Translations under genes and position numbers: made by a program
NCBI GenBank assembly: GCA_021646465.1
Contig: SOET01000027.1
Span: 1 to 59,861, forward strand
DNA from: Candidatus Kuenenia hertensis
GTDB taxonomy: Bacteria; Planctomycetota; Brocadiia; Brocadiales; Brocadiaceae
Length of the DNA stretch: 59,861 nucleotides
Reading direction: 5' to 3'
Notes under the pieces: generated by a model
What the model was told of the DNA's origin: nothing
Databases searched by the model: none
What the model saw: the letters and a program-made list of their open reading frames with translations, nothing else
Shown here: positions 570 to 51,065 of the stretch, piece by piece
Numbering within the stretch: the first letter of the stretch is position 1
How the letters are laid out: each line of letters starts with the position of its first letter

Positions 570-803
570 ATGGAAGAAAAATTATTAAACAGGATAGAAA
601 CAAATCCAAAAATAATGTTTGGTAAACCCGTGATAAAAGGAACCAGGTTAACGGTAGAAATAATTTTGAAAAAAAAACTTGCTTATGGAGAATCAGAGGA
701 AACAATATTAAAAGAATAACCTTTTTTAAAGAAGGAGGATATAAGAGCCGCGCTTCTTTATGCCGCCAAAATATTGTCGCTGGAAGAAATATTTCAAACG
801 TAA
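570..803 (+). pseudogene. DUF433 family antitoxin gene with an in-frame stop
   Basis: The ATG at 570 follows an AGGAG site. The first 49 codons encode the usual DUF433 start: RIETNPKIMFGKPVIKGTRL, then VEIIL. Codon 50 (717-719) is TAA, and the same frame continues with the family's C-terminal part (PFLKKEDIRAALLYAAKILS) to the TAA at 801-803. A normal DUF433 protein is about 75-80 residues, which is exactly the read-through length, and the family usually has Tyr or Asp-Tyr at the stop position (LKEYPFL). I therefore see one substitution in an otherwise intact gene. DUF433 proteins usually act as antitoxins for PIN-like DUF5615 toxins. Here only an 18-codon ORF (803-859, overlapping the stop as TAATG) follows, which may be the stub of a lost toxin. 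Confidence 0.75.
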
Positions 804-1033: not shown

Positions 1034-3772
1034 ATGTCTTGTATGCAAACAATAAGAAAGATTTGGGAATACATTGTAAGAAATTGGCGTTGGTTTTGGT
1101 GGCATTGGGGGATTCAAATCTTGTTTGTTTTACTGCCTACATTATTTGCAACAAATGCAATCATTCCATGCCTTGATAAACCATTTCGAACTATTGTGTT
1201 TTCTTTTTTTTGCTTAGAAGAAAAAGCTTGCGATCACCTTAATCAATTACCATCAAAACTAGCATTATTTTTGGGCAACGACAAAAAGATATCGTATAAC
1301 ACTAACAAAGAAGATTACTTAAATTTTAAAGGAGACATGCCTGAAGATTAAAGAGACTTTTTGCTTACGATGTCTAAAGATAAAAATTACCAAAATGCAA
1401 TAAAAGAACTTTATTCAAATCAAAAAGCGTATATCCAAGAATTACCAAAAGAGATAGCATTTCTTCTTGGAGATAGCAGGAAAATAGATTACAAGAATGA
1501 AAGATTGATTTTCAATGGTATTATGACGGAAAATGAAAAAAATATTTTGCTTAAATTTACTTCTCCAGAATATTGCGAAGATTCGTCAAAATATGAAGGA
1601 GCAGTAAACAATCTTTTTGAAATGTCACAGCATCATGTTATAAATAATCTAAGATATTTTTTTAATACTTTTCTTAACAATATTAAAAGCTCACCCTTTG
1701 ATACCCTTACTTTAGTTAACGGTTTTATTGCTCTAAATGAAGCTTGTGCTATCCTTCCGTTATTGCTTTTTTTAAGTGTTATTTTTACATTTTTATTGAA
1801 TTTGCTATTAAAATTAGGAACAAGCGATAACTACCTTATTTTCCGTCCAACAGTAATTATAATTTATCTTGTTATTATTTTTATTTTATATCATCTAATC
1901 AATCATTCGCTTTTCATTATCTCTTTTTTATGCTTTGTTACTATAATACTTTTTCTACTTCCATGTTTATATCGTTACATGAATTTCAGATATTGGTTTA
2001 GTATTTTATCTATTTTTTTTGTAATTCTTAGCATTATTATAATTTTATGCACGAATAAAAATTCGGTATTTTGTATCTCTGAAACAATTGGAGAATGGAT
2101 TAAAAATCATGCTGTTTTTCTTGTTTGTTGTTTAATGCTGGTTCTAATAATTGGAATTAAAAGCTATCGTGAAAAAGTTTACATTTCCAATAAATACTTA
2201 ACAAAATATATCTTGCTTCATTATCCTGTAGTCTTTTTTGCAGGGGTAATTTACAACATAATTATTTATGTGTATCTTTGTATTATTGTTTCAAATGATG
2301 ACATGAAACAAGTTTCAACATTACCATTACTTACTATATGGTCAGCCTCATTAGCAATGTGGATGGGGCCTTTTATATGGGCCTGGATTCAAACTTTCAG
2401 TAAGGATTTTATTGATGAATATTATCGGAAAACTACATTTCAAATTATTGCAAATTTAAATAACCATCAAGTAATGCTTGGTTATGGTGAACTTGGCAAG
2501 GGAATACAGACTGAACTTTTAGAAAGAATGAAAAAAAATAAGATACAGAAAGAACCGATTTTAGATCCTTCAGATGGTTCTACCATAAGATATTTAGCCA
2601 AAGATATGGTGGTAGTTGACAGGGATGATAAGATTTTTGATCATGTTTATTGCGATCCGTCTTTTGAAAAGATTGGTATAGCAAAAGCTAAATATAGGTA
2701 TATTAAATCACTGCCTCAAACTAGGCTTGAAATAAAGAAAGAAGAATTATGGATTCCAGCCGTTATCGGTAATTTCATAAACGAGAGTATAATTGATTAC
2801 TGCGCTTTAGGGAAATGCAAATTCTTTATTGATACCATAGAGGGTTATGAGGAATCTATCAGGATATCAAAGTTTGCACACGATCAACAAAGAACGAGAG
2901 GCATTATAACCGTTAGTGACAGCGCACAGAAGAAGTTCCTGTTTCCGAGACATTCCGGGCATGGGATATTCCTTGCATATCCTACAAGGCAGCGGGGCAT
3001 ATCGTTGGCAGAGGTTATTTATCCTGCCATGTCCAGGTGGCTTAATGAGCGTAATGTTCCTAATGTGCTGATCTTTACAGATAATCTTCGACAGATTCAT
3101 TACATAATAGAGACCATACTGCAGGAACTTAAGCTGAGCAACTATCTCGATCAATATTTGGGTGGACCTTGGAGAACATTACCATACCAAAACGAACATG
3201 TCGACTTAAGGATAACCCTCTGTAGTGAAGCGGAAGAGGTAATAAGGGTATGTTGCACTAATATGAAAGAAGACATATTGCACAGTCTGGATGTAAGAGA
3301 ATGGGTAGAGATAATTGAGCGGTGCGCAAGTCCTGAATGTGCATGGCCAAGCGTGAAGTACTACATAAAGAGCAGAGTGATTGTGGAAAAACCCCACCTC
3401 ATGACCATGGAAAATATGATAAAATGGTTAAAACCTAAGGTGGTTGTTATTAATTATAAAAAAACAGCTGATATCCTGAAAGTACTTCATGACTGGATTA
3501 TTGCTGTGGAGAGGCATAATTCATTAAAAGAATATTACCGGCCATGGATATGGATGCCAAAGATTATCGTGGGGTATCAGGGAGAGGAAGAACGAGATGT
3601 AAGGGATTGGCTTACATATTATGATACCCTTTGTAGTATAAAATGCAGTGGTGGAGATAGTTACAATTGGCAACGATATCCTGTTCAGTCAATAGATTGT
3701 ATGGTGGATTTAAACAAAGACTCACGGGAACAGATAGCCGCAATAGCAGAGGCAATGCAAAATAAGAGGTAA
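1034..3772 (+). pseudogene. Membrane protein with RCK/TrkA-N-like domain, split by an in-frame TAA
   Basis: Two open stretches, 1034-1351 and 1361 (TTG; ATG at 1370)-3772, lie in the same frame and are separated only by TAA at 1349-1351. The protein homology runs across the stop. A roughly 60-residue module (LPSKLALFLGNDKKI then LNFKGDMPED) starts before the stop and finishes after it. A second copy (LPKEIAFLLGDSRKI, LIFNGIMTENEK) follows at once in the downstream part. The first part carries one membrane segment. The downstream part has about seven hydrophobic segments between its residues 125 and 350, then a soluble half with a Rossmann-like NNHQVMLGYGELGKGIQTEL at about residue 370. That resembles the RCK/TrkA-N domain of K+ channels and transporters. 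Intact, the product would be about 912 residues. The gene ends 6 bases before its partner. The function is inferred and the exact family is unknown to me. The stop may be a real mutation or a sequencing error. Confidence 0.6.
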
Positions 3773-3778
3773 AAACAT

Positions 3779-5017
3779 ATGCCAATAGATGAACATGCCA
3801 TAGGTATACACATTATATTGAGAAACAAGGCTGGTACCTTTCCCAAAATCCTTGAAAATCTTTCAGGACTTATATTTGAAGAAGATACTGAGTTTAAACA
3901 AAAAAACAACAATCTTTTTTATCCATCATTTCATTACAGCCGTTACCAGAATTGTTCTTATGGAAAGAAACAGAGAGAGCAATACTTTTATTTCACTGCC
4001 GATATTACATTAGAAAATTCTGTAGCTAATAACGCAGAAAAAGGTGCGGTAATTCTTTCCTTACCAACCCCAGATGAATCTTTAGTTGAAAGAAATAGCA
4101 TAATAGATAGAATTAATAGCCTCCTTTTTTCTTCTCAAAATAATGGGTGGTTAGGTCATATAAAAAAATCAGATGGAAAAATTGTAATGATAAACATAGA
4201 TGATAATTTAGAACAGCATATTCGGGTTGCGCATGAATTACTTGAAAAAAATTGCCTTTTTCAAGTAACAGTTTCCCCTGAAACTTATAGGGCAAAAATC
4301 TTTAATATCTTACAAAATTCAGAGTTTTATAGACATTTCATACCAGAAGAATTATTAAATGCAGAATTTAATCGTTCATATGTTAATACCCAATTTTCAT
4401 ACAATGAAAACATTCATATTGAAAGAATACCATTGGCAAAGTTGCACATCTGTTGTCGTCACGGCGATAAATCCGGAGCCCTTGCCGCAGCAATAAATAC
4501 GCTACTTTTTAGAAAATTTAATGGTTACAGAAATGATGGCCTGCAATATGTATTTAATATAATGTTTCTCATAGATTATTTCTCCTTCTCACCAAGTGTG
4601 GCATATGACGCCATTTATGGACGCTTGACAGATTTTAAAAAAGATAGAATTAAAATTGCTCAAAAGGACGACGACAATAATAACCATACGGATATTAGCA
4701 AACCTCCTGATGTAACGAGGGCAAGGGAAGTGATAGAAAGAATACTTATATGTCCTATTAGTGACAATAATTCTTGTAATAACTCTTGGGTCGAGTATGC
4801 TAATAAATTACACGAATATCTTAAAGAAAATGGAGAAATTAGTTACAAAGAACCGATAAAAGATCAATATAATAATAACATCTTGATTTATCGAAATGAG
4901 CATCAACCATGTTGGATACAGGACGAAGATCATAATAAAAGGAATGCGCCAAACACAGGATGTGATATATGCAGGAAGTGTTGGAGAATTGATGAATTAA
5001 GAAAAGTATATCATTAA
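3779..5017 (+). CDS. Unknown 412-residue protein with two ACT-like segments and a Cys cluster
   Basis: I do not recognise the family. It starts 6 bases after the membrane/RCK gene and is surely in the same transcript. The N-terminus (residues 7-30, AIGIHIILRNKAGTFPKILE) and a middle segment (LHICCRHGDKSGALAAAINT, about residues 222-241) both have the beta-strand, D/K-x-G and helix pattern of ACT-type ligand-binding domains. The C-terminus holds a CxxCxxC-like cluster (GCDICRKCWRI) that could bind a metal. There is no signal peptide or membrane segment, so it is probably cytosolic. I infer a regulatory partner for the adjacent RCK-like membrane protein. The base composition is AT-rich, like that gene. 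Confidence 0.5.
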   Translation: MPIDEHAIGIHIILRNKAGTFPKILENLSGLIFEEDTEFKQKNNNLFYPSFHYSRYQNCSYGKKQREQYFYFTADITLENSVANNAEKGAVILSLPTPDESLVERNSIIDRINSLLFSSQNNGWLGHIKKSDGKIVMINIDDNLEQHIRVAHELLEKNCLFQVTVSPETYRAKIFNILQNSEFYRHFIPEELLNAEFNRSYVNTQFSYNENIHIERIPLAKLHICCRHGDKSGALAAAINTLLFRKFNGYRNDGLQYVFNIMFLIDYFSFSPSVAYDAIYGRLTDFKKDRIKIAQKDDDNNNHTDISKPPDVTRAREVIERILICPISDNNSCNNSWVEYANKLHEYLKENGEISYKEPIKDQYNNNILIYRNEHQPCWIQDEDHNKRNAPNTGCDICRKCWRIDELRKVYH

Positions 5018-5092: not shown

Positions 5093-5308
5093 ATGTTAAT
5101 AAATTACTTCCCTCTGGAGTTCGAATTTGATGAATATGAAATAAACGCAGTTGAAAATTCACAAGAATATTTCAAAGAGCTTCGTGATAAATACAATTCA
5201 ACACATTCATTCTTTAATATTGGGTCAAAAATATATATATCCAATAAAGATGGTGAGGAATTAAATATTGGTAAATCACATAGTCGGTTTTGGTGTCGGT
5301 TCTGTTAG
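5093..5308 (+). CDS. Short orphan ORF, probably a truncated gene
   Basis: This encodes a 71-residue acidic protein (MLINYFPLEFEFDEYEINAV) with no recognisable domain. The first 62 residues read like a normal soluble protein. The last few (SRFWCRFC) change character where the DNA becomes a G/T-rich GGTTTTGGTGTCGGTTCTGT stretch, which suggests that the original 3' end was replaced. There is no strong ribosome binding site before the ATG. It may be a gene fragment left in this decaying accessory zone. Confidence 0.3.
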   Translation: MLINYFPLEFEFDEYEINAVENSQEYFKELRDKYNSTHSFFNIGSKIYISNKDGEELNIGKSHSRFWCRFC

Positions 5309-5743: not shown

Positions 5744-6129
5744 GTGGCAAGAAATCCTGAAGAATGGTTTAATCAAGCTAATTATGGTATAAAAACAGCC
5801 GAAATTATGTTTAACAACAAAAGAAATATTTATACGGTATTTATGTGCCATTTAGCTATAGAAAAAGCTCTTAAGGGATTGTATGCAAAAGAACTTAACA
5901 AGTTGCCGCCGAAAACACACAACCTCATTTATCTCGTTGAAGAAATCCATCTTGATCTTTAGAAGATCAATACGACTTTATTTTTACTCTTAACAGGGTT
6001 AGTGTTCCAATTCGTTATCCAGAGGAGTTACAGAAATTAAAAAAAGATTACAATAAAACGAAAACTAACGTTTTACTTGAAAAAAGCAAGGGAGTATTAA
6101 AATGGCTAAAAACAAGGTTAAGGAAGTGA
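5744..6129 (+). pseudogene. HEPN-domain toxin gene, frameshifted
   Basis: The gene starts with GTG at 5744. The first 72 codons give a HEPN-domain N-terminus (RNPEEWFNQANYGIKTAEIM, then CHLAIEKALKGLYAKE and KTHNLIYLVEEI). After codon 72 the frame closes at TAG (5960-5962), but the +1-shifted frame continues the family: EDQYDFIFTLNRVSVPIRYP, then EELQKLKKDYNKTK, ending at TGA 6127-6129. One base was lost near 5955-5962. HEPN proteins of this kind are the RNase/toxin half of HEPN-MNT modules. The shifted reading frame overlaps the start of the MNT gene by 28 bases, the usual layout of such pairs. As it stands, the toxin is truncated and probably inactive. Confidence 0.75.
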
Positions 6130-6431
6130 TTAAATTCTTAGAAAAGAGTTTAGAAGAAAGCGGTTTGGAAGTAATGAAGATTGTCCTTTTCGGGTCTTAT
6201 GCCAGAAAGGAATCAACCGGTGAAAGCGATATAGATATTGTGATTGTATCAAAAGATTTTCGTAAAAATGATATTTTTAAAAGAGTAGAATTAATCAAAG
6301 AAGCCGAGATAAAGACCATTAAAAAATTTATGATACCTCTCGATATTATTATGATGACGCCAGAAGAATTTGAAAGTAAAACGTCCATCATCAGTGATTA
6401 TGCCAGAAATGGCGAAGTAGTTTATGGATAG
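6102..6431 (+). CDS. MNT-type nucleotidyltransferase antitoxin
   Basis: This is a 109-residue minimal nucleotidyltransferase. It shows the nucleotide-binding GS at residues 31-32 (LFGSYARKESTGESDIDIVI), the metal-binding D43 and D45, and a third acidic residue D81 (PLDIIMM). MNT proteins neutralise their HEPN partner, in known pairs by adding AMP to the toxin. The gene overlaps the frameshifted HEPN gene, so the antitoxin is intact beside a broken toxin. A GC-rich inverted repeat 50 bases downstream (6481-6517) may end transcription. Confidence 0.8.
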   Translation: MAKNKVKEVIKFLEKSLEESGLEVMKIVLFGSYARKESTGESDIDIVIVSKDFRKNDIFKRVELIKEAEIKTIKKFMIPLDIIMMTPEEFESKTSIISDYARNGEVVYG

Positions 6432-6480
6432 CAATAGATGATAAAATAATTCTAAATCTTTTGGATGGCTGAGGAAAACA

Positions 6481-6517
6481 GGGGCAACGACCGTTTTGAT
6501 TAAACGGTCGTTACCCC
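6481..6517. terminator. Stem-loop between convergent genes
   Basis: The arms 6481-6496 (GGGGCAACGACCGTTT) and 6502-6517 (AAACGGTCGTTACCCC) pair over 16 positions with one mismatch around a 5-base loop. The structure lies between the plus-strand MNT gene and the 3' end of the minus-strand S74 gene, so it can serve as a two-way terminator, although no long T-run follows. A degraded copy lies near 7668-7705 as part of a local duplication. Confidence 0.5.
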
Positions 6518-6592
6518 TTTCCCCGTGCCGTGCGGGTCCAACCCCTTATGTTTTCATGGAGGTATTTACCGGTTTTATTTACCTCATATTAT

Positions 6593-7444
6593 TTAAATCT
6601 TATTCTGAATTTCCCTCATTTCCTGCAACAATTCCGATATGATTTTCTGCTGCTCATGGAGCATTTTCTTTTGTTCCTGAATCTCACGTTGCTGCTCTTG
6701 CATTACCTTTGTCATAACAGCGGTAATGTCCATGGGGCGCAATCGTTTGCGATCCTGGTAAGCTACAAGAGACGGAACATCTTCGGCAATAAACCCAAGG
6801 TGTTCTTCCTCTGAACTGTCCACTTTATATTTGAATTTAACGGGGTTAAGAGCTTGCAACGTTTCCGTGGCCTCAGCAAGAGAAATACCGGTAATATCTT
6901 TTTTCAAATCTCGTGATGAACCTTCGGTAACAGAACCGGATGCGTTTATGTTGCCTACGACTTCAAGCGACTCTGTTGGGTTTGTAGTGCCTATGCCAAC
7001 ATTGCCGGTTGAGTTAATAAATAATGTTCCCGTTGGCGCTTTCTGTTCAATTATGAAAGGGTTTGACCATACCTCTCCATCAAGCAGCCCGACAGTATAC
7101 GCGCTCGCAGGGATTTCATCAAATCCGTCTTTCGGCGCTATTCCGATGCTGGCCTTTGTTTCGCCCTGTCGACTGAAATGTATTACAACAAACCCAGTTT
7201 CGCCGCTGGCATCCGTTTCGCCACTTACAAGAATTTGCGGATTAATATCAGACTCAACTTCCAACCTGTTTGAAGGAGTTGACGTTCCAACACCAACATT
7301 CCCTTTTATGTAATAAATATCAGAGCCCGATTTTTTCCACTGTGCAGCGCCCTTTTTTGCCAGAGCGATACTATCGAATGTAAGAAAACAAGAAGTAATA
7401 ATTGTTATTGATAATGTAATAATCGCAAAAAACCTTTTTCTCAT
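6593..7444 (-). CDS. Exported protein with S74 endosialidase-chaperone domain
   Basis: This is a 283-residue protein with an N-terminal signal peptide (residues 1-29, ending SIALA). Tail-fibre-like beta modules follow (GNVGVGTSTPSNRLEV and GNVGIGTTNPTESLEV, two copies of the same turn). A peptidase S74 intramolecular chaperone domain begins at SSRDLKKDITGIS, with LNPVKFKYKV and LGFIAEDVP downstream, and the protein ends in a Gln/Glu-rich trimeric coiled coil. S74 domains assist trimer folding and then cut themselves off at a conserved Ser, with Lys as partner; both are present in the SSRDLKK motif. The likely product is a secreted or surface trimeric fibre. The ribosome binding site GAGGAGG lies before the ATG. 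A partial copy of its 3' end lies just upstream at 7758-7863. Confidence 0.75.
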   Translation of the reverse strand: MRKRFFAIITLSITIITSCFLTFDSIALAKKGAAQWKKSGSDIYYIKGNVGVGTSTPSNRLEVESDINPQILVSGETDASGETGFVVIHFSRQGETKASIGIAPKDGFDEIPASAYTVGLLDGEVWSNPFIIEQKAPTGTLFINSTGNVGIGTTNPTESLEVVGNINASGSVTEGSSRDLKKDITGISLAEATETLQALNPVKFKYKVDSSEEEHLGFIAEDVPSLVAYQDRKRLRPMDITAVMTKVMQEQQREIQEQKKMLHEQQKIISELLQEMREIQNKI

Positions 7445-7509
7445 AAATAGAACCTCCTCATATTAAATTAAAGTATTCATATCATATTTGTATCAGTCTG
7501 CAATGGCCG

Positions 7510-7544
7510 GGATAGCTAATGCCTCTGAAAAACATTAGCTATCC
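7510..7544. repeat. 12-bp hairpin upstream of the S74 gene
   Basis: GGATAGCTAATG (7510-7521) pairs exactly with CATTAGCTATCC (7533-7544) around an 11-base loop. It lies about 65 bases before the S74 start codon, so it is either part of its leader or a terminator for upstream minus-strand transcription. There is no T-run. Confidence 0.4.
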
Positions 7545-7667
7545 GGTAGATTAATCAAAAATCAAAAAAAATACCATTACTATTTTACCTACAGTCAAAC
7601 TAATCCGGGGGAATCTTAACGGGAAACCCTTAGCTTATTAACAAACACCCTGCGAAGTATAAAATAG

Positions 7668-7863
7668 GGTCAGCGACTGTTTTGATTAAACGGTCCCTTT
7701 TCCCGCCCTTTTATGCTTTTACGGAGGTATTGACCGGTTTTATCTATCTCATTTTATTTAAATCTTATTCTTAATTTCCCTCATTTCTTGCTGCAATTCC
7801 TATATGATTTTTTGCTGCTCCCGGAGCATTTTCTTTTGTTCCCGAATCTCCCGTTGCCGAATT
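7668..7863 (-). pseudogene. Duplicated, truncated 3' end of the S74 gene
   Basis: This stretch repeats 6480-6695 at roughly 80-85 percent identity by eye, including the stem-loop downstream of the S74 gene and its last ~35 codons. The coding part (7863 down to 7758) reads as the same coiled coil (QREIREQKKMLREQQKII, EMREIKNKI) but has an internal TAG and no 5' part. It is the remnant of a second S74 paralogue or of a partial tandem duplication. The segment 7864-8020 shows no gene. Confidence 0.7.
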
Positions 7864-8024
7864 CCAAAGGCATTATATTTAATTATTTCCCTTCATCGCC
7901 AGAATTATCTGAAATTAAGTATGGTGTTCCCATATTGTCACAATTCAGGAAATGTAGTACGACTCGCAATCAGCCAGTTCTTTTTATCCAACGGTAGTAT
8001 TCTTGAGATAATGTAGTTAGTATT

Positions 8025-9464
8025 TCACATAATTGACTTCCATCCACCACCCAACGCCTGGTAAATATTAACCATTGCGTACATTTGTTGTGCTTTCGTT
8101 TCAATCAATTCCATTTTCGCTTCCAACGCATCACGTTGGGTCATTAACACTTCCAGATAATCGGCCCTGGCTGATTTGAACAGGTTATCTGCAATAGTAA
8201 TCGACCGGGTAAGCGCCTCCACCTGCTTTTCCTTCAGGTCATAGTTTTTTCCCAGGTTACTGATCTTTGACAGTTTATTGACAACCTCTGTGTAAGCGTT
8301 CAAAACGGTACGTTCATAATTGTAAACAGCTTGTATCTGCTTTGCGTTTGCATTGTAGTAGGCTGCCTTTATTGCGTTTCTGTTGATCAGGGGTACCGTC
8401 AATTCTCCGGCCAGGTTATACAGCATGGATTCTGGTGTTCTTATTAAATACTTCGGATCAAATGCCTGATAACCTACACCGGCAGTAATGTCTAAAGCAG
8501 GGTAAAACCTGGCTCTCGCCACCATCACATCCAGCTTTGCTGCTGCCAGCTCCAGTTCTGCTTGTTTAATGTCAGGACGGTTGGTCAATAATTGTGATGG
8601 GAGACCGGCATGGATCGTGTCTGGCACCAAATCATTATATCCCTGAGAGTTTCGCTGAACAGGCTGAGGGAATCTACCCACCAGGAAATTGATCCTGTTC
8701 TCCGTTTCCGTGATCTTTTGTTCAATATTGTACTGATAACTTTGGTTTTTGAGCACCTCTGCTTCAAACTTACGCACTGCCAGTTCGGTGGCTTTAGCTG
8801 CTTGTTTCTGTAACTTTACAATTTTTAGGGCATTTTTTTGGATTTCAATGTACTTTTTTATTGCGTCCAGCATGTTATCGAGCGCCATCAGTTCGTAATA
8901 AGAACTGGATATTTCGGCAATCAGCTTAGTTACCATGAAATTTTTTCCTTCAATTGTGGACAGATACTTCAACGCTGCTGCTTTTTTGGCATTCCGCAGC
9001 TTTTTCCATATATCCACTTCCCATGAAACATTGGCAGATATCAGATAATCCGGCAGTGGTTCAGGGAATTCCTTACCGGATTTAATGTCAAGGTTTTCTT
9101 CAACAGCCCCATTTCTGGTAAACTCGCCCACCTTTTCAGCCCCGGCTCCCGCCTTAAGATTTACAAAAGGCAGATACTCCCCTTTTCTGGCTTGTACTTC
9201 ATTTTCGGCAATGATAATTTCCTGCAAAGTGATATTCAGTTCCTGGTTGTTTTGCAGTGCGGTATCAATCAGGGATATAAGCTCGGTATCGGTGAAAAAT
9301 TTCATCCAACTAACCTCTGCCGTATTGGTTGTATCCTGTGCATTATTATAACTTTCCGGAACGTTGTTATTTGCTGTTTTCTGTAACAACGCTGGAGCAC
9401 AGCCTTTGAATACCAGCGAAATACAAATTATCCCTATATAGCTCAATATTTTGTTTCTTTTCAT
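8025..9464 (-). CDS. RND efflux outer-membrane channel (NodT/OprM family lipoprotein)
   Basis: This is a 479-residue TolC-like outer-membrane factor. The N-terminus has a lipoprotein signal with a lipobox cysteine (LVFKGC). The body carries the paired coiled-coil and beta-strand repeat of the NodT/OprM family, with typical segments ISANVSWEVDIWKKLRNAKK, LPSQLLTNRPDIKQAE and ARFYPALDITAGVGYQ. It forms the trimeric exit duct of a tripartite pump. It is the last gene of a minus-strand operon, after the adaptor (12828-13913) and the inner-membrane pump (9556-12792), 91 bases behind the pump. The protein style resembles Bacteroidota homologues, which hints at past transfer. The substrate cannot be read from the sequence. 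Confidence 0.93.
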   Translation of the reverse strand: MKRNKILSYIGIICISLVFKGCAPALLQKTANNNVPESYNNAQDTTNTAEVSWMKFFTDTELISLIDTALQNNQELNITLQEIIIAENEVQARKGEYLPFVNLKAGAGAEKVGEFTRNGAVEENLDIKSGKEFPEPLPDYLISANVSWEVDIWKKLRNAKKAAALKYLSTIEGKNFMVTKLIAEISSSYYELMALDNMLDAIKKYIEIQKNALKIVKLQKQAAKATELAVRKFEAEVLKNQSYQYNIEQKITETENRINFLVGRFPQPVQRNSQGYNDLVPDTIHAGLPSQLLTNRPDIKQAELELAAAKLDVMVARARFYPALDITAGVGYQAFDPKYLIRTPESMLYNLAGELTVPLINRNAIKAAYYNANAKQIQAVYNYERTVLNAYTEVVNKLSKISNLGKNYDLKEKQVEALTRSITIADNLFKSARADYLEVLMTQRDALEAKMELIETKAQQMYAMVNIYQALGGGWKSIM

Positions 9465-9555
9465 TGTCTTTAATTTCTTTGATTACTCTTTATTTCTGCC
9501 TTAACAATTTTTTAATTAGCATGCTAGCCTTCCGCAGGTTTTCTGAGAGCATGTT

Positions 9556-12500
9556 CTAACTTTCTTTTGTAGGTACATCTTCTTCGTTCAGGCCGGTGGA
9601 AAGACCAGTACAAACGCTGAGATACCCTTCTTTTGAATGTACATATTCTTCGCTCAGGGGTTCTAAATGTTCGTCTTTTATGAGTTGACGGCCTTCTATG
9701 AGTTTGCCGAATATGTAATACAATCCGGGAATAACGATTACCCCGAAAACTGTTCCAATAAGCATACCCCCAAGAGAGGATGAGCCTATGGTGCGATTAC
9801 CTATGGCGCCAGGACCTGTGGCGACAACTAAAGGTATCAATCCCGCACAAAAGGCAAAAGAAGTCATCAGGATAGGTCGAAAACGCACCCTGGCGCCTTC
9901 TATGGCCGCTTCGAGTATGGTTGCTCCCTGCTGATGATTCTGAACGGCAAATTCCACGATCAGCACCGCATTCTTAGCCAGCAAGCCGACCAGCATGATC
10001 ATTCCCACCTGGGCATAAACGTCGTTGGCCAATCCCATGAGCTTGAGCAGTGAAAACGAACCAAATACTCCAATCGGCAAGGAAAGGATTACTGCTAAAG
10101 GCAAAACGAAGCTCTCGTACTGTGCAGCAAGCACCAAATAGATAAAAATGAGCACGATAATAAAGATATAAACCGCTTCATTTCCACGTGCTGCTTCATC
10201 AAACGAAAGTCCTTCCCAGGCGATGTCATACCCCGTAGGCAAAGTTTCCTCAGCTACCTCCCGTATCGCTTGTATGGCATCGCCAGTGGTGTAGCTCGAT
10301 GCGGGCAACCCCCTGATGGCTGCCGAATTGTATAAGTTGTAACGGGTAATTTCATTGGGTCCCTGTGTTTTTTTAATCTTCATGAATGATGAATAAGGCA
10401 CCATATCACCATGTTCACCTTTTACATACAGGTTCTTAATATCCGATGGGAACCTTCGGTATTCCGGAGCTGCCTGTGTGTAAACTTTGAAAAAACGGCC
10501 AAATCGAATAAACCCCTGCTCATAAGTACTCCCTATCAGAATATTGAGGTTTTCCATTGCTTTCCCGATAGACACTCCTTTTTGCATAGCAACTTTGTTG
10601 TCTATCTCCAACTCATATTGTGGATAATTGGCCGCATAAAAGGTAAATAAGCCGGACAACTCTTTTCGCTTGCGCAAGGCGTCCATAAATTCATTATTTA
10701 TTTTTTCAAATTCATGGTAATCCGTAGAATTGGTTTTATCGAGCAAGCGCAGGGAAAAACCGCCGGAAGAACCAAATCCCGGCACAGCAGGTGGTTCAAA
10801 AAACTCTATGATCGCTCCAATATCCTTCGTTTTTTCTTCCAATTCCTCCATGATCTCATGAACCGAACGTTCACGCTTCGACCAGTCCTTCAGGTTGATC
10901 AGGCAAGTCCCCGCATTAGAACCTCGTCCTTCTGTCATGATCTCATAACCGGCCAATGAAGTAACCGATTCAACATCATCAATTTCTTCACAAATTTCTT
11001 GCAGTTCATGGGCAACCTGATTGGTTAATTCCAGAGTGGAGCCCGGAGGGGTTTGTATAATAGCATAGATTGTCCCCTGGTCTTCACTGGGAACAAATCC
11101 TGCCGGAACAACTTTATTTTCCAGGAATATCCCGACACCAAATGCCAGCAATATCCCGAAAGTGACCAATCTTCTGTTTACTATTAATTTTAGCAATCCT
11201 ACATATCTTCCTGTTAGCTTTTCGAACCACCTGTTAAAATAGCCGAGCAACCACTTGATCGGTGATTTTTTTCTCGGTTTACCGTGCGTATTCTTCAATA
11301 TGATGGCACACAGCACCGGTGTAAGCGTAAGTGCAACAATACCCGAAATAACAATGGAAGTGGCCATCGTAATGGAGAACTGCCGGTAGAATACACCTAC
11401 CGGGCCAGACAAGAATGCTACAGGGATAAATACCGCTGTCATCACCAGTGTAATGGCAATAATGGCGCCACTGATCTCACTCATCACTTGTTTGGTGGCA
11501 TTATATGGCGACAGGTTTTCTTCTTCTTCCATTTTGGCATGTACAGCCTCTACTACCACAATGGCATTGTCCACTACTATACCAATGGCCAGCACAAGGG
11601 CAAATAAGGTGACCAGGTTGATGGAAAGTCCGAAAAGCTGCATGAAAAAGAAGGCGCCGATCAGGGATACCGGAACGGCCAGTGTTGGAATCAGCGTGGA
11701 GCGCCAATCGCCAAGAAAGATAAATACGACTAAAGCTACCAATATAAACGCGTCTCGTAAGGTATGCATCACTTGTTCAATAGAGGCGCCCAAAAATTGC
11801 GATACATCATAACTGATCTTATAATCCATTCCCGGTGGGAACTCCGTTTTTAATTCTTTCAGTTTGGCCTTTACCTGCTTAATTACATCATTGGCATTAC
11901 TGCCGACTGTTTGTTTTAAAACAATGGATGCCGCAGGATGACGGTCAATGTTGGAATAGATGTCAAAAAATTCGCTTCCCAGCTCTACATTGGCTATATC
12001 TTTCAGGTAGAGTATTTCGCCTTTTTCATTGGCACGAATGATGATATTCTCATATTGTTCCGGCTTATTATACCTTTCCTGGTATGTCAGCACATATTCA
12101 ACCGATTGTGCATATATTCCCGAACTTTGCCCTAATCTTCCCGGCCTGCCTATGATGCTTTGCTCCTCCATTGCCTCCATCACTTCTTCTGCCGATATGT
12201 TATATGCCCGCATCCGATCGGGTTTCAACCAGATGCGCATGGCATATTTCCGGCTCCCCAGTATTTGCGCCATCGCTATACCTTTAATTCGTTGTATTTC
12301 CGGTATCATTTTGGTATAGGCGTAATTGTAAAGGAACTTTTCATCGGTATTTTTATCTTCACTGTATAGGTTCACATACATCAACATGCTGGGTTGTATC
12401 GGTGTGATAATAACTCCTTCCATTTGAACCAGCAGAGGAAGATTGGGCATCACCTGATCCACCCTTGTTTTCACTCTTATAACCGCTTGATTAGGATCAG

Positions 12501-36410: not shown

Positions 36411-39224
36411 ATGATACATGACGCCTTTGCTTCAAGCAAAACGGAGTTGTTTGTGGGCAGGCAACGATGTTTTAATTACCTGGATGAACACGTAAAAGGT
36501 GGCTCTCCACCTCTTGTTGTATTCGGTGAACCCGGAATTGGAAAATCGGCGCTTCTTGCAAATTGGGGGAAATGTTACCTCTCCTTAAATCCCGGCAACA
36601 AACTCATAATACATTTTATTGACATTTCTTCCTGTACAAAAAGTTTAGATGTCATGTTGCTGCGCATTATGCGTGAATTAAAACACGGATTCAACCTGCC
36701 TCTGAATATTCCCGCAAACCGGAACGACCTCAACACTGCATTTGTTAATTCCCTTTCAATGGCGGCAGCAAAAGGCAAAGTGGTTATTATTCTGGACAGC
36801 ATTGATCAATTGGAAGAACGGGAACTCACGCAGACCTTCTCATGGCTTCCATTTGAAATGCCGGCGAATATACGGCTTATTCTTTCTGTATCGCCCGGCG
36901 CCATGTTTGATGCCATCGCAAAACGCAATTGGCCTCTTCTCGAAGTAAAACCTTTTGAAACCGGAGAACAAAGTCAATTCATACATAAATATCTGCAATA
37001 TACCCATTCAAAAACATTTAATGAAGATCACATAGAAACAATTACCAACGCCACACAAACATCCAATCCGCTCTATCTCCATATGCTCATGGATGAATTA
37101 TGTATTGTTAATAATGCAACATCCGCAGTGGAACACAGACTTAAAGAATATCTTTCCGCACAAACCGTGGAAGATCTCATTCTCAGGGTAATTGAACGAT
37201 GCGAAAATGATACCGAACTAAACACTGCGGCTCCCGAACTTTTTCGGAAAGTTATGTCATTATTGTCAACCTCAGGAACGGGCTTGTTGGAAAATGAATT
37301 AAAAGAACTGCTTCAGGAACAAACACATCGGCAGACAAATATACAACTGCAAACATTACTATCAAATATGAAACATATACTGATACAGCACTCAAGCCTT
37401 TTCATTTTTAAACACAGAGGTTTTCAAAATGCGGTAATACGCAGGTATCTTTCAACTGAAGCAGAAAAAATAAAATACCACCTGTACCTTGCAAATTACT
37501 TTGAGAAAAACCGTTTGGGGTTGCGCTCAATTAAAGAACTTCCGTGGCATTTGTCTCAGGCAAGGTCGTGGAATGCATTATTCAGGCTCCTTTCTGATTT
37601 ATCTTTTTTTAATGCCTTACATGAAACAAGCAATTACGATGCAATGTATTATTGGTCTCAAATAGAAGAAAATTCTCAAATGCGTATATCATATGCCTAT
37701 TGTGCTATTATGGAATCGCCTGGCAATTATCTCGACCGCATTAAAAACCTTTCATTTTTCTTAAAGGAGAAAAATCTTCTTACCGAAGCATTGAAAATGT
37801 TTGAGTATCTTGTTTTTTATTATGGACAAAATAATGATTACGACAATTTACCAATAGCCCTTGGAATGCTCGCAGACATCCTTTACGAAAGGGGAGGTAT
37901 GGAAGAGTCCATGCAATTGCACCGGGATGAAGAACAAATTTACCGAAGTACCGGAAATAATTACGGACTAATGCAATCCCTGTCACATCAGGCAATCATT
38001 CTGTTTGCCGATAATGATTGGGAAAATGCTCTGCAACTCTATAAGAAAGAAGAAAAACTCTGCCGTGAACTGAAGGATGATTATCGATTATTGTATAATC
38101 TTAACAAACAAGCAAAAATAGCATTTCTCCGGCAAGAAACAGATCTTTCAATGGAATTACTTATGGAAGCGGAATCTATTAGCCGCAACCTGGGAGACAT
38201 GTCAGGGTTATCCGTGTGCCTAGGCAACAAAGCCCGTATAAGCAAGACTTCCGGAAATCTTGACGAGGCAATTACCTTACTCAAAGAGCAGGAAAATATT
38301 TGCCGTACACTGGGAAATAATAAGGAACTTTCGGCTTGCCTCGGAAACCAGTCGCTTATTCTTATAAGCCGTGGGGACTTTGATGGAGCACTCGCCTTAC
38401 TTAAAGAAGAAGAAAATCTCTGCAAAAAATTGCACAACGAACACGCACTCTCTTACAACCTCGGGAACAGGGCAAATATTTTTTCGATACGCGGAAACCT
38501 TGCGGAGGCATTGGAATTATATAAAAAACAATCCGCCCTGTTCAGAAAAACATTAAACAAACACGGATTATCATACAATCTGGGCAACCAGGCAAACATC
38601 CATTACACACTGGGGAATTCAGATGAGGCAATGTCTTTATACACAGAACAGGAACGTTTGTGCAGGGAATTAGGAAATGAGGATGGATTATCGTATGCAC
38701 TTGGCAACCAGGCAAATATTTTCGCAGACAGAGGCGATCTTGATAAAGCATTGGAACTGCACAAAGAAGAAGAGCGTATTTGCCGGAAACTATCCAATAT
38801 AGAAGGATTGCAACGCTCTTTGGGAAATCAGGCAAGCATATTATATAGCAAGGGGAATTTACATGACGCATTCACTCTCCACAAAGAAGAAGAACGATTA
38901 TGCAAAAAACTTGGAAACAAGAAAGAGCTTTCGGCCTGCCTTGGAAACCAGGCGCTTGTTATTAAGGATTTGGGGAATCCGGAGGAAGCCATTGTACTAT
39001 TAAAGGAACAGGAAACTATTTGCAGGGCTCTTGGTTTAAAGAGCGGCCTTGCAATTTCATTGGCAAACCAGGCAGAGATTCTCGCACAAAATACTAAACA
39101 GACAAATGAAGCACTACCACTTGCGGAAGAGGCATATACGATTACTACTTCATTCGGTTTTCATTCGTTATCACAGGAAATAGAACCTATTTTGCACACA
39201 ATCAGATCGCTTTTAAGTAAATAA
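36411..39224 (+). CDS. NACHT/STAND-like ATPase with eleven TPR repeats
   Basis: This is a 937-residue protein. Residues 10-330 hold a P-loop ATPase of the NACHT/AAA_16 kind: FVGRQRCFNYLDEHVKG entry motif, Walker A FGEPGIGKSALLANW, Walker B VVIILDSIDQLEE and a sensor segment IRLILSVSPG. A winged-helix-like linker (FRKVMSLLSTSGTGLLENEL) follows. From about residue 485 the protein is a superhelix of eleven repeats of exactly 40 residues, each with L-x-NQA-x-I and L-x-KEEE-x-LCR-x-LG (for example SLGNQASILYSKGNLHDAFT). STAND proteins use the repeat to sense a ligand and the ATPase as a switch. No effector domain is visible at the N-terminus, so the output is unknown. GAGGGAGA precedes the ATG. 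Confidence 0.75.
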   Translation: MIHDAFASSKTELFVGRQRCFNYLDEHVKGGSPPLVVFGEPGIGKSALLANWGKCYLSLNPGNKLIIHFIDISSCTKSLDVMLLRIMRELKHGFNLPLNIPANRNDLNTAFVNSLSMAAAKGKVVIILDSIDQLEERELTQTFSWLPFEMPANIRLILSVSPGAMFDAIAKRNWPLLEVKPFETGEQSQFIHKYLQYTHSKTFNEDHIETITNATQTSNPLYLHMLMDELCIVNNATSAVEHRLKEYLSAQTVEDLILRVIERCENDTELNTAAPELFRKVMSLLSTSGTGLLENELKELLQEQTHRQTNIQLQTLLSNMKHILIQHSSLFIFKHRGFQNAVIRRYLSTEAEKIKYHLYLANYFEKNRLGLRSIKELPWHLSQARSWNALFRLLSDLSFFNALHETSNYDAMYYWSQIEENSQMRISYAYCAIMESPGNYLDRIKNLSFFLKEKNLLTEALKMFEYLVFYYGQNNDYDNLPIALGMLADILYERGGMEESMQLHRDEEQIYRSTGNNYGLMQSLSHQAIILFADNDWENALQLYKKEEKLCRELKDDYRLLYNLNKQAKIAFLRQETDLSMELLMEAESISRNLGDMSGLSVCLGNKARISKTSGNLDEAITLLKEQENICRTLGNNKELSACLGNQSLILISRGDFDGALALLKEEENLCKKLHNEHALSYNLGNRANIFSIRGNLAEALELYKKQSALFRKTLNKHGLSYNLGNQANIHYTLGNSDEAMSLYTEQERLCRELGNEDGLSYALGNQANIFADRGDLDKALELHKEEERICRKLSNIEGLQRSLGNQASILYSKGNLHDAFTLHKEEERLCKKLGNKKELSACLGNQALVIKDLGNPEEAIVLLKEQETICRALGLKSGLAISLANQAEILAQNTKQTNEALPLAEEAYTITTSFGFHSLSQEIEPILHTIRSLLSK

Positions 39225-42357: not shown

Positions 42358-42934
42358 ACTTTATGTTTTGGCGAAATTGCTCTTATACTCTTCTATCGAT
42401 GCCCTTTAAAAAGGGCAATGTACTAAAACTGTTTTATTACTTCAAGCACTTTTTCTATGCTGCTTAATTCCGCAATAATCCTTTTCATTCGTCCCTGACA
42501 AGCAATCTCCAATGTGGGTGCAATAACAATCTTTTTCAGAACTGCAATTTTTGGATAATACAAGAGTATGATAACATCATTTTTCAATAAGTTTTCGGTA
42601 ATATTAACATTTCCATTATATAATCAACAGAAAATAATCGAATAACAGCATCGATAAATTCAGTACATTTGGTTTCTTATGCCCTTCCTTCTGCAACGCT
42701 GATAGCATCATATTGGCCAACGCCGGCTCCGTTCCCTATTTTCCTGTTGTAATGCACAAAAATATTGATACTATAAACCCCTTAGCTGGCGATTGCTACG
42801 GCTTTTGTAAACTATCAGTAACATAGCGTATGTGTTACCCGGCTGTAATTGAAGATGCAACTGGCCGCAAAAGATTTTTTAACAATGCTTCAATATACCG
42901 GCTTCATTCTTTTTCCATAAAATATTTTTACCCA
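42358..42934. other. Gene-poor gap with a possible gene remnant on the minus strand
   Basis: A minus-strand open stretch from about 42618 to the TAG at 42423 reads like protein (NDVIILLYYPKIAVLKKIVI, then MKRIIAELSSIEKVLEVIKQ) but lacks an ATG. A TTG start near 42584 would give about 53 residues. The helical end resembles the last turn of ACT-type domains. I treat it as a possible remnant. A 7-bp hairpin GCCCTTTAAAAAGGGC lies at 42401-42416. Nothing else is recognisable before the methyltransferase start. Confidence 0.3.
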
Positions 42935-43888
42935 ATGACAGAGATACATATTTATAAAACAATCGAAAAGGCATTATCTTTCAGAAGAAATTACATAAAT
43001 AACGCCCATACCAATGCATACCGTTTAATAAATTCTTATGGCGATAATCTGCCGGATATAACAATAGATATATATGGAAAGGCCGTTTTGGTGCAATTTT
43101 TTAAAACGTACGAAGTATGCAAAAAAAAGGAAATGTATGAAGCGGTACGAAAAATATTAGCGCCTGAATTTATCATAGAAAAGGACCGATTAAAAGGAAA
43201 GGACGTTATCACCCGCTTGATATCAGGTAAAGAAATCCCTGAAGATTATGTAGTATTTGAAAATGAAATACCGTTCTCTATCTCATTCAGTGACGGAGGA
43301 GGAACAGGGTTATATTTAGACCAGCGGAATAACAGGAAAAAGGTGCAATCTTTTGCTTCCGGCAAAGAGGTTCTGAACTGTTTTTGTTATACATCATCAT
43401 TTTCTGTCTATGCATGTAAGGGAGGCGCTGTAAAAACAACCAATATAGATTTATCCAGGAAGGCAATAACATGGAGCAAAAAGAATTATTCACTAAACCA
43501 AATAGATATTAATAATCATGATTTTATTACCGGAGATGTATGGGAATATTTTAAAATATTCCAAAAAAAGGGAAGGGAATTTGATATGATAATTCTAGAC
43601 CCCCCAAGCTTCTCTACAAGTAAATCAGGAGCATTTACCGTAGAAAAAGACTTTCCCGAATTAGTCGGTATGGGACTCAATATCCTCAGAGAAAACGGAA
43701 TTCTTGTATTTTCTACAAATATTGCAAAAGTGAAGATATCAAAAATGTTTCAATTATTGCCAAAAATTAAAACCCATACCAAAAAATTATTTAAAATTAT
43801 TGATATTTCATCGCAAGGGCTTGATTTTCCCCTTGATGGAATTTATTTAAATGAACCTTATTTGAAATTTTTTTTGTTTTCATGTTAG
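42935..43888 (+). CDS. RlmI-type class I SAM-dependent rRNA methyltransferase
   Basis: This is a protein of about 317 residues from the ATG at 42935 (MTEIHIYKTIEKALSFRRNY), the natural family start; an upstream ATG at 42830 adds 35 unlikely residues. NAYRLINSYGDNLPDITIDI is the RlmI-type opening. The SAM domain has SDGGGTGLYLDQRNNRK, EVLNCFCYTSSFSVYACKGG (motif I) and ILDPPSFS (motif IV, DPPSF), the signature of the RlmI/RlmK group that makes 5-methylcytosine in 23S rRNA. The PUA domain at the N-terminus of E. coli RlmI is missing, so the exact substrate is open. Confidence 0.85.
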   Translation: MTEIHIYKTIEKALSFRRNYINNAHTNAYRLINSYGDNLPDITIDIYGKAVLVQFFKTYEVCKKKEMYEAVRKILAPEFIIEKDRLKGKDVITRLISGKEIPEDYVVFENEIPFSISFSDGGGTGLYLDQRNNRKKVQSFASGKEVLNCFCYTSSFSVYACKGGAVKTTNIDLSRKAITWSKKNYSLNQIDINNHDFITGDVWEYFKIFQKKGREFDMIILDPPSFSTSKSGAFTVEKDFPELVGMGLNILRENGILVFSTNIAKVKISKMFQLLPKIKTHTKKLFKIIDISSQGLDFPLDGIYLNEPYLKFFLFSC

Positions 43889-48104: not shown

Positions 48105-51065
48105 GTGAACAAAATAAAAAATTATACCCTTGGCATTGATATGGGAACCAATTCCATCGGTTGGGCAGTGATCGCGTTCAAAGAGAATCAACAACCATCA
48201 GAATTAATTGCTTGCGGTACACGCATATTCCAGGAGGTTGTAGATGCAAAGTCAAAAATTCCTAAAAATCAGACTCGCCGTGCCGCACGTTCTGCACGCA
48301 GGCTTATTGCCAGACGCAAGATGAGGCTCAATACAATACTCAACCTTTTATTGAACTATGGACTGCTTCCAAACAATGCTGAAGAGCGTGAGAAATTATT
48401 TACCGATAATAAATCTTTCGATCCGTACCAACTCAGGAAAAAGGCGCTGGATGATAAACTTACACCTTATGAATTTGGACGTGTTTTATACCACCTTGCT
48501 CATAGGCGCGGTTTTCAGAGTAATAGAAAAGTATCATCCAAAGAAGATGGCACAGTGAAAAACTCTATCAGCTCCCTTCGTCAGGAGATAACGGATTTTG
48601 GCTGTCGCACCCTGGGTGAATATCTCTCTGTCCAGCCAAAAAAGCGGAATCGTTACACTGATCGCTCCATGTATCAGGAAGAATTTGAATTCATTTGGCA
48701 AGCACAGCAAAAACATTATCCAGATTTGTTCAACCAAGCATTTAAGATATCCCTCCATAATGCAATTTTCTTCCAACGTCCCCTCAAGACTCAAAAATTT
48801 CTGATTGGCAAGTGTACCTTCGAACTATCACGAAAACGTGCATCATGGACATTGCTGGAAGCACAGCGATTCAGAATATTATCTGACTTGAATAATCTTG
48901 CTATTAAAAACCCCATTACTCGCGAATATCGTCCACTTAGGGATAGTGAACGAGAAAAACTTTTAGAACTGTTGGAAAGGCAGAAAACCCTGAGCTGGAA
49001 TAAAGCACGCACGGTTTTAGGACTACACGCAGGTGAAATTTTTAACCTCGAAGAAGGGAAAAAGAGAGAACTTATAGGAAACCGCACCGTTTACGCATTG
49101 CGCTCTATACTGAAAAAACAATGGGATGAAATGAATCACTCTGAACAAAATGACCTTATTACCGACATGTTTACCATTGACAATGAAAACGGTTTTTTAC
49201 ACCGTATGAAGTCCCATTGGGGTTTTGACTCGGAAACAGCTGAATTACTTGCTAAAACTGAACTCGAACCAGGTTATGCAAGGCTCTCACTTAAATCCAT
49301 ACGTAAAATTCTTCCATATCTAAGAAAAGGTATGACTTACGATAAAGCATGCAATGCCGCAGGCTATAATCACAGCACACATATTCTGCAAACTGCTGTA
49401 AATACTCTTGGAATCCCCCCATATCTGAGGAACCCTGTGGTACAGAAGGCGCTATACGAAACAAGGAAGATTATCAATGCCATTCTTTATAAATACGGCA
49501 AACCCGTAACAATTCGTGTGGAAATGGCGCGCGATATGAAACTTACAAGACGGCAGAAAGAAGATTTTCAAAAGAAACAAAAGGAAAACGAAAACAATAA
49601 TGATAAAGCCAGGAATATTTTGCAAAACGAGTTTGGAATTCAAAACCCAACCAGGGCAGATGTTCAAAAGTACAACATGTGGGTTGAATGCCAGATGACC
49701 TGCCCCTATACCGGTATTCCTATCTGCCGAGAAATGTTATTTTCTCAGGAGGTAGATGTAGAACATATTCTGCCGTATAGCCGAAGTCTTGACGACTCGT
49801 ACATGAACAAAACCCTGTGCATGGCATCTGAAAATCGCACAACCAAGCACAATAAAACGCCCTATGAAGCCTACCATTCCAATGAAACAAAATATCAGGC
49901 AATTCTTCAACGCATTAAAACACTTCCCTGGCCAAAAAGAAGGCGTTTTGAGCAAAAAGAAATTGATACCGATAAATTTGTAGAACGTCAATTAAACGAT
50001 ACACGTTATATCTGCGTGGAGGTAAAAAAATATCTTCAAAGTCTTGGTGTAACAGTAGAGGTAAGCAAAGGTGAAGCAACCGCCGCATTGCGCCACCGAT
50101 GGAATCTTAACAGGATTCTGACAGAAGATGACTCGTCTGAAAAAAAACGCTCTGACCATCGTCATCACGCCATTGATGCCATTGTTATTGCCTTAACGTC
50201 CGGAAGTTTGTTCCAAAAACTTTCAAGACTCTCTGCACAAAGCGGGGCAGCCTTGAGCGAACGCGGTTTCCAACTAGATAAACCGTGGCCATCATTCTAT
50301 GAAGATGCAGAAAAGATGGTCAGAAATATCATCGTTTCTCATGCGCCCAATCGCAAGATAACTGGCGCATTACATGAGGATACTGCATACGGTTACAGCA
50401 ACCATGATAAATGTTTTGTATATCGCAAGCCACTATCAACCCTCACTGAAAATGAAATCGAAAAAATCCGTGACGGCATGATTAAACAGTTGGTCAAGGT
50501 GCGAATTGAACAGTTTGATGGCAACCTCAAAAAGGCATTGGGCAATGCGAACAGCCCATTATTGCATAGAGACGGTAAAACACCAATTAGAAACGTGCGA
50601 TTGATGAACAATTTCAATCAGAATACGGTAAATGGTATTAAAAACCGTGTGGGTATAACCTACAAGTTCTTCAAATATGGAAATAATCACCATGTTGAAA
50701 TAATAGAAAACATCAATACAGGGGAACGTAAAGGCGTCTTTGTTACTGCTATGGAAGCAGCTAAAAGAGCAAGAATAGATAAAACAGGTATTGTTCAACG
50801 CAATCATGGACCAGAATGGAGGTTTGTAATGTCTTTGTGCACAAATGATATGATCGAAGTTGATAACGATAACGTCAAAAAATATTACAGGGTACAAAAA
50901 ATGTCAGGTAGCAAACAATTTGAAATTACGCTAAAATATCATCACGATGCGCTTCCAGAGATTAATGCAAATAGCTTACGCATTCGTAGCAACAAAGATA
51001 TCAAAAAAATTTCCCGTAAAATATTTATTGATCCTCTGGGTTCCGTCTTTGCCAGCAATGATTAA
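48105..51065 (+). CDS. cas9: Cas9 endonuclease, compact type II-C
   Basis: This is a 986-residue Cas9, within the short II-C size class. It starts at GTG 48105 after GGGAGAG. RuvC-I is LGIDMGTNSIGWAV with D12. The arginine-rich bridge helix is NQTRRAARSARRLIARRKMR at about residues 55-75. RuvC-II is TIRVEMARDMK (about 470), HNH is EVDVEHILPYSRSLDDSYMN with His near 554, and RuvC-III is HRHHAIDAIVIALT near 688. A PAM-interacting C-terminal region follows. With crRNA and tracrRNA it cuts invading DNA next to a PAM that cannot be read from the protein alone. Its last 8 bases overlap the start of cas1. No csn2 or cas4 follows, which fits type II-C. Confidence 0.97.
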   Translation: MNKIKNYTLGIDMGTNSIGWAVIAFKENQQPSELIACGTRIFQEVVDAKSKIPKNQTRRAARSARRLIARRKMRLNTILNLLLNYGLLPNNAEEREKLFTDNKSFDPYQLRKKALDDKLTPYEFGRVLYHLAHRRGFQSNRKVSSKEDGTVKNSISSLRQEITDFGCRTLGEYLSVQPKKRNRYTDRSMYQEEFEFIWQAQQKHYPDLFNQAFKISLHNAIFFQRPLKTQKFLIGKCTFELSRKRASWTLLEAQRFRILSDLNNLAIKNPITREYRPLRDSEREKLLELLERQKTLSWNKARTVLGLHAGEIFNLEEGKKRELIGNRTVYALRSILKKQWDEMNHSEQNDLITDMFTIDNENGFLHRMKSHWGFDSETAELLAKTELEPGYARLSLKSIRKILPYLRKGMTYDKACNAAGYNHSTHILQTAVNTLGIPPYLRNPVVQKALYETRKIINAILYKYGKPVTIRVEMARDMKLTRRQKEDFQKKQKENENNNDKARNILQNEFGIQNPTRADVQKYNMWVECQMTCPYTGIPICREMLFSQEVDVEHILPYSRSLDDSYMNKTLCMASENRTTKHNKTPYEAYHSNETKYQAILQRIKTLPWPKRRRFEQKEIDTDKFVERQLNDTRYICVEVKKYLQSLGVTVEVSKGEATAALRHRWNLNRILTEDDSSEKKRSDHRHHAIDAIVIALTSGSLFQKLSRLSAQSGAALSERGFQLDKPWPSFYEDAEKMVRNIIVSHAPNRKITGALHEDTAYGYSNHDKCFVYRKPLSTLTENEIEKIRDGMIKQLVKVRIEQFDGNLKKALGNANSPLLHRDGKTPIRNVRLMNNFNQNTVNGIKNRVGITYKFFKYGNNHHVEIIENINTGERKGVFVTAMEAAKRARIDKTGIVQRNHGPEWRFVMSLCTNDMIEVDNDNVKKYYRVQKMSGSKQFEITLKYHHDALPEINANSLRIRSNKDIKKISRKIFIDPLGSVFASND

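Follow-up and report, generated by a model that had tools for sequence, protein, structure and literature searches.

Does a membrane protein whose cytosolic half resembles an RCK domain form a regulatory pair with the soluble protein encoded directly behind it? The question is posed by positions 1034-5017 of the window, the whole stretch of 59,861 nucleotides analyzed here, which is contig 12 of the 89-contig genome of Candidatus Kuenenia hertensis. The two proteins are designated A (803 amino acids, membrane) and B (412 amino acids, soluble), and a third, G, is a 1,277-residue relative of A. A preliminary description of this DNA had proposed a polytopic protein with an RCK-like cytosolic half next to a soluble protein with two ACT-like segments and a Cys cluster, in surroundings like those of defense systems. 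Sequence comparison supports A as a membrane protein with an RCK-type switch attached to its last helix. The wider reading, in which A is an RCK-controlled membrane channel or transporter, B its soluble and perhaps ligand-sensing partner, and the locus perhaps in decay, is held tentatively and falls a little short of an even chance.

The membrane protein A and its RCK-like half

A and B are genuine genes: at the local base composition, the probability that 803 codons would stay open by chance is about 7e-30, and for the 412 codons of B it is about 1e-15. Both lie on the plus strand with a gap of 6 bases, confirming the spacing first described, and because the AGAGG that could serve as ribosome-binding site for B abuts the stop codon of A (3770-3772), translation of the two is probably coupled.

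The polytopic character claimed for A is borne out by hydropathy, which gives about seven membrane segments after the one encoded further upstream, the seventh (near residue 334) being weak. The claim of an RCK-like cytosolic half likewise finds support, both from a profile-profile comparison with controls and from one homologue. A two-row profile made of A 310-803 and G was compared by hhalign with an alignment of TrkA_N domains from the same genome (seven of the eight stretches found, the weakest, L019, being omitted); the score was 34.3 at a probability of 46%, whereas 20 column shuffles reached no more than 19.1, and the single sequences scored lower (20.0 for A alone and 28.9 for G alone). 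The aligned positions include the glycine loop, an acidic strand end, and a later stretch running from G-(N/D) to A-L, and the match begins directly behind the last membrane helix of A, as in RCK channels. In the second half of A, hhalign detected no TrkA_N signal. When the profile was compared with the PDB, the best two matches, both non-significant, were a putative potassium-channel protein, 1id1, which we take to be the RCK domain of E. coli Kch, and YbaL (E 0.38 and 0.53, respectively); the third (E 0.87) was an unrelated isomerase. Further matches near the last-helix/RCK segment of A were obtained in L022, L023, L024, and L029, which presumably represent a membrane helix followed by the start of an RCK domain. 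Pfam and the other family libraries recognized no transporter family in the membrane region.

The homologue, G, is encoded in another Planctomycetota genome (G115; locus L006, positions 6294-10127, the same as L009), and its locus is letter-for-letter identical to record JAJDCM010000332.1. Residues 317-427 of A, comprising the last membrane helix and the start of the RCK part, are homologous to G 410-519, with two-sequence E-values of 3e-8 by BLAST and 1e-8 to 2e-8 by HMMER, and the two proteins find each other in whole-genome searches at 8.2e-5 and 4.1e-5. Wider searches used samples of phylum genomes that overlap heavily. Among 392 genomes of the phylum, A matched three at E up to 0.001, namely its own, that of G, and one (G046) in an N-terminal repeat of A only; the three matches among 59 relatives were A itself and two in the repeat region, and the six genomes matched among 75 of the class were its own and five in which the match covered either the repeat or the RCK-start segment alone. 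G found itself, the A locus, and one weak match (0.0096; a membrane stretch across two stops) in the 392 genomes, and only itself in the three genomes of its class. A combined A+G profile recovered A, G, and two short matches over the RCK start (G097 and G179) in the 392 genomes, and G with the same two short matches in a set of 278. B matched only itself in the 392 genomes. Neither A, B, nor G had a match among plasmids, nor A or B among phages; five scans of viral contigs yielded nothing that was confirmed, and a contig scan with the transmembrane-RCK alignment confirmed 1 of 50 candidates, which was G itself. On the question, raised at the outset, of whether the pair is confined to this genome, the answer is thus divided: the membrane-RCK part is present in one other genome, and an A-B pair is not proven there.

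Protein B and its possible tie to A

B has no significant family match in Pfam, NCBIfam, PADLOC, or the PDB and no RCK signal in hhalign, and neither A nor B was named above cut-off by the family libraries used. The Cys cluster reported for B is present (C378, C395, C398, and C401). The two ACT-like segments that accompanied it in the preliminary description are a matter of motif resemblance. The first carries the motif and reached an hhalign score of 24.1 at a probability of 10%, somewhat above the maximum of 18.0 in 20 shuffles. The second scored 16.0, not above shuffles, and aligning one half of B with the other gave a score that 148 of 300 shuffles reached. In 36,159 amino acids from 66 stop-to-stop frames of six sequences, a strict form of the ACT-like motif occurs twice, in B and in G just behind the RCK part, and a looser form six times, the patterns having been composed after the sequences had been seen. 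An ACT-like nature of B is no more than suggested. Because the motif follows the RCK part in G, its order of parts suggests that G may be a natural fusion of A and B.

A number of results weigh against the reading of A and B as one RCK-controlled system. TrkA_N is the top Pfam match of A (E 0.023, 15.5 bits) and the only one of G (E 0.0018, 19.0 bits), and both fall below the 23.8-bit cut-off; the C-terminal lobe of RCK domains (TrkA_C / RCK_C) has no Pfam match in A, B, or G. Apart from the last helix, the membrane regions of A and G are not similar (62 of 300 shuffles as high), nor does the second half of A resemble G (158/300). The motif scan of A and G found no TVGYG-type filter, for which reason A is not classed as a K+ channel; the sole GYG belongs to the RCK glycine loop (residue 374 in A). 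AlphaFold2 models built from two-row alignments had mean predicted local distance difference test (pLDDT) values of 37.6 for the cytosolic half of A and 30.4 for B, too low to use. As to the fusion, whole B compared with the C-terminal part of G is not significant (39/300), nor are its N- and C-terminal parts compared with G (23/300 and 17/300). The best placement of the A/B junction on whole G is the colinear one (G 870-924), and 38 of 500 shuffles score as high; when windows of B were compared with whole G, the share falling in the right part was equaled by 23 of 60 shuffles and their order by 8 of 60.

The fusion was accordingly reduced from a strong claim to a suggestion, the junction test that gave 0 of 300 having used a hand-chosen region and the three tests on whole G having failed. 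Since the similarity between B and G is not significant, what ties B to A is that the genes adjoin and that the motifs come in the same order. One relative is demonstrated by sequence for the RCK part, and none for B. A further candidate identity, that of an I-DmoI-type homing endonuclease for A 604-708, was dropped by judgement as weak (PADLOC, 6.6e-4; PDB, 0.07); this segment may not be RCK.

An interrupted gene among broken neighbors

Presented at first as one pair, the region proved to be interrupted, its A side consisting of two in-phase frames with one stop between them (Table 1). This stop falls in the first copy of a repeat of about 65-75 residues, which starts in the upstream frame and crosses the stop in one phase. 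Copy 1, taken across the stop, aligns with copy 2 at a score of 84, whereas none of 500 shuffles exceeded 42. On its own, the portion ahead of the stop is significant (0 of 500 shuffles as high); the portion behind it is not (25/500), and it scores only through six residues common to both windows, the extent by which the windows chosen for the two copies overlap. Because the upstream frame is in phase with A and the repeat continues over a single stop, the gene of A was probably once longer, and it may now be decaying.

The repeat also occurs in otherwise different proteins of the same order (L003, L004, L025, and L026), with scores that none of 500 shuffles reached; Pfam has no match for it in A or L003, and PADLOC returned nothing for the 105-residue upstream frame at E up to 10. 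In L025 it follows a leader sequence and precedes a barrel that we take to be TonB-receptor-like, and on this ground the repeat is probably periplasmic. It was not found in G (161 of 200 and 93 of 200 shuffles as high).

The toxin-antitoxin and mobile debris first noted around the pair is indeed seen at this locus, in the form of DUF433, HEPN, and MNT genes and an Argonaute fragment separated from B by 75 bases and encoded on the same strand, and is not seen at the locus of G. A frame in another phase near position 5960 looks, on inspection, like the remainder of the HEPN gene; Pfam does not call HEPN there. A search of the whole genome detected no Piwi domain. At the G locus, PADLOC matches two of the eight frames (G included), a class V aminotransferase and a HEAT-repeat protein; the aminotransferase matches DndA/SspA models (4e-24 and 5e-25), as would be expected of cysteine-desulfurase-like enzymes. 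Pfam adds NTP_transf_5 and an S49 peptidase, and three frames have no match; among the eight frames scanned none looks like a defense gene and there is no Argonaute. PADLOC holds no family for B at E up to 10 and none for G at E up to 0.001, and for A gives the single weak homing-endonuclease match mentioned above. On these two loci, a defense role is not supported, because B lacks a PADLOC family, the match of A is weak, and the neighbors of G look ordinary.

Table 1. The A-B locus and its immediate surroundings, with positions in the window
Feature	Positions	Strand	Basis
DUF433 gene, upstream of A, split by in-frame stop (pieces 7.4e-13 and 0.042)	570-797		Pfam
Upstream in-phase frame, 105 amino acids, likely original N-terminus of A; one membrane helix (residues 25-48) and repeat start	1034-1351	+	Phase, hydropathy, repeat
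Repeat copy 1, broken by the stop	1232-1435	+	Aligns with copy 2
Single in-frame TAA stop separating upstream frame from A, inside repeat copy 1	1349-1351	+	Sequence
Protein A, 803 amino acids: about seven membrane segments, then RCK-like cytosolic half	1361-3772	+	Open frame, Pfam, hydropathy
Repeat copy 2, A residues ~20-95	1418-1645	+	Alignment; repeat shared by further proteins of the order
Membrane region of A, residues ~116-345, without TVGYG-type filter motif	1706-2395	+	Hydropathy, motif scan
Putative RCK N-lobe (Rossmann), A residues ~371-521	2471-2923	+	hhalign profile comparison
Second half of A, alpha/beta, possibly another RCK or an RCK C-lobe	3035-3769	+	hhalign, without TrkA_N signal
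AGAGG, ribosome-binding-like site for B, abutting A stop codon	3765-3769	+	Sequence
Protein B, 412 amino acids, soluble, without hydrophobic segment	3779-5017	+	Open frame, hydropathy
ACT-like signature, B residues 8-31	3800-3871	+	Motif scan, hhalign
C-terminal Cys cluster of B, C-x16-C-x2-C-x2-C	4910-4981	+	Sequence
Class II prokaryotic Argonaute N-terminal fragment, 71-residue stub (1.9e-10)	5093-5308	+	PADLOC
Partial HEPN frame (match stops at position 64 of the 117-position profile), then MNT-type nucleotidyltransferase, downstream of B	5744-6431		Pfam

Farther along the window are other genes of possible interest. A type II CRISPR-Cas system with Cas9 (986 amino acids) and Cas1 lies at 48105-51942, 43 kb away. 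A 352-residue protein (42830-43888) partially matches the defense-library model mad2 over residues 154-299 (5.8e-18), and a 937-residue AAA ATPase with TPR repeats (36411-39224), whose NACHT match falls just below the cut-off, is a possible STAND-type sensor. The protein encoded at 58027-59721 matches RtcR/PspF activator models in its C-terminal part.

Other accounts of the A-B pair can be given. One holds that A is RCK-regulated and B is just the next gene of the operon, its likeness to ACT arising by chance and without any regulation of A. The lack of a significant family match for B, its comparison with G at the level of shuffles, and the weak ACT score all speak for this account, which we nevertheless consider unlikely, for the stop codon of A and the ribosome-binding-like site of B abut, the best junction placement on G is colinear, even if shuffles reach it, and the strict motif recurs just behind the RCK part of G and nowhere else in the residues scanned. 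A broader alternative, which overlaps with our preferred explanation, sees a mobile or defense island on which a cluster of pseudogenes is decaying, the pair having no present function. With an in-frame stop in A, a DUF433 gene split by another, a HEPN match that breaks off partway, and an Argonaute reduced to a stub in a genome with no Piwi domain detected, such decay is quite plausible, if short of an even chance; yet 803 and 412 codons are still open, other genes such as that of an AcrB-type pump are full length, and the stop, known from one sequence, may be a sequencing or assembly error.

The same Argonaute stub allows A and B to be cast as effectors of an Argonaute defense operon that would correspond, on a larger scale, to the membrane effectors known from long-B Argonautes. 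Its class II N-terminus follows B closely on the same strand, and long-B Argonautes do have a membrane partner, bAgaM (PMC10620215). We nevertheless judge this account very improbable: the genome shows no Piwi domain and the G locus no Argonaute; the best plasmid match of the stub, from Hymenobacter (6e-7), has a DNA methyltransferase next upstream and, in an incomplete annotation, no A or B; and RCK goes unmentioned in the main text of PMC10620215. Its most elaborate form is likewise very improbable: an Argonaute immune operon in which a two-sided, RCK-gated ion channel (periplasmic repeat and cytosolic nucleotide/ACT part) would do the killing, a remnant of it surviving here next to the stub.

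A possible mechanism and its known counterparts

Under the preferred reading of A as an RCK-controlled membrane protein with B as its partner, an RCK-type Rossmann switch on the last membrane helix would control the transport or channel activity of A, with a nucleotide or similar ligand binding to the RCK lobe and thereby moving this helix. B would be made from the message of A by translational coupling and could attach to the RCK ring as a soluble subunit of ACT-like type that probably senses a ligand, its Cys cluster serving for metal binding or as a redox switch, and the probably periplasmic N-terminal repeats might act as a docking or sensing part. Because the in-frame stop follows the first helix, full-length A is perhaps no longer made, and decay may be affecting the locus as well as the broken genes around it.

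If A and B do form one complex, a membrane protein under RCK control would have its ACT-like sensor as a separate subunit, and RCK switches would be known to serve a broader range of membrane proteins and ligands. For now the A-B pair is a lead rather than firm ground, given a single distant relative and an interrupted gene. No paper with both 'RCK domain' and 'ACT domain' was found in the literature searched, which excludes most subscription papers. In PMC7159879 and PMC8195603 RCK is unmentioned, and in the latter 'ACT domain' appears once, with regard to TRADD-N.

Several known systems share features with the proposed one. Like A, the RCK ligand-gated K+ channels GsuK, MthK, and BK carry a Rossmann RCK lobe behind the last helix of their membrane part, and GsuK is opened by ADP and NAD+ (PMC3510474). 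A has about seven to eight membrane segments, whereas GsuK has two, and it departs from the group in lacking a TVGYG filter, in having a second RCK that is only a candidate, and in its separate soluble neighbor with an ACT-like motif. In CASTOR, POLLUX, and DMI1, as in A, the RCK half is hard to see by sequence, the TVGYG filter is absent, and the second half has no sequence relatives (PMC6697748); unlike them, A has N-terminal repeats and the neighboring gene B. Among the Pfam matches of A at E up to 1, the Castor/Pollux family does not appear. The Kef and Trk transporters share with the proposed system the control of ion transport by RCK domains, whereas no transporter family was recognized for the membrane region of A. 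The long-B Argonaute partner bAgaM offers a likeness of context only, a gene for a membrane protein near an Argonaute gene, and the Argonaute here is a stub of unassigned subtype. The arrangement proposed for A and B, finally, recalls Thermotoga TM1088A/B, whose gating ring combines the products of two genes at a single locus (PMC4380455), although B here carries no RCK signal.

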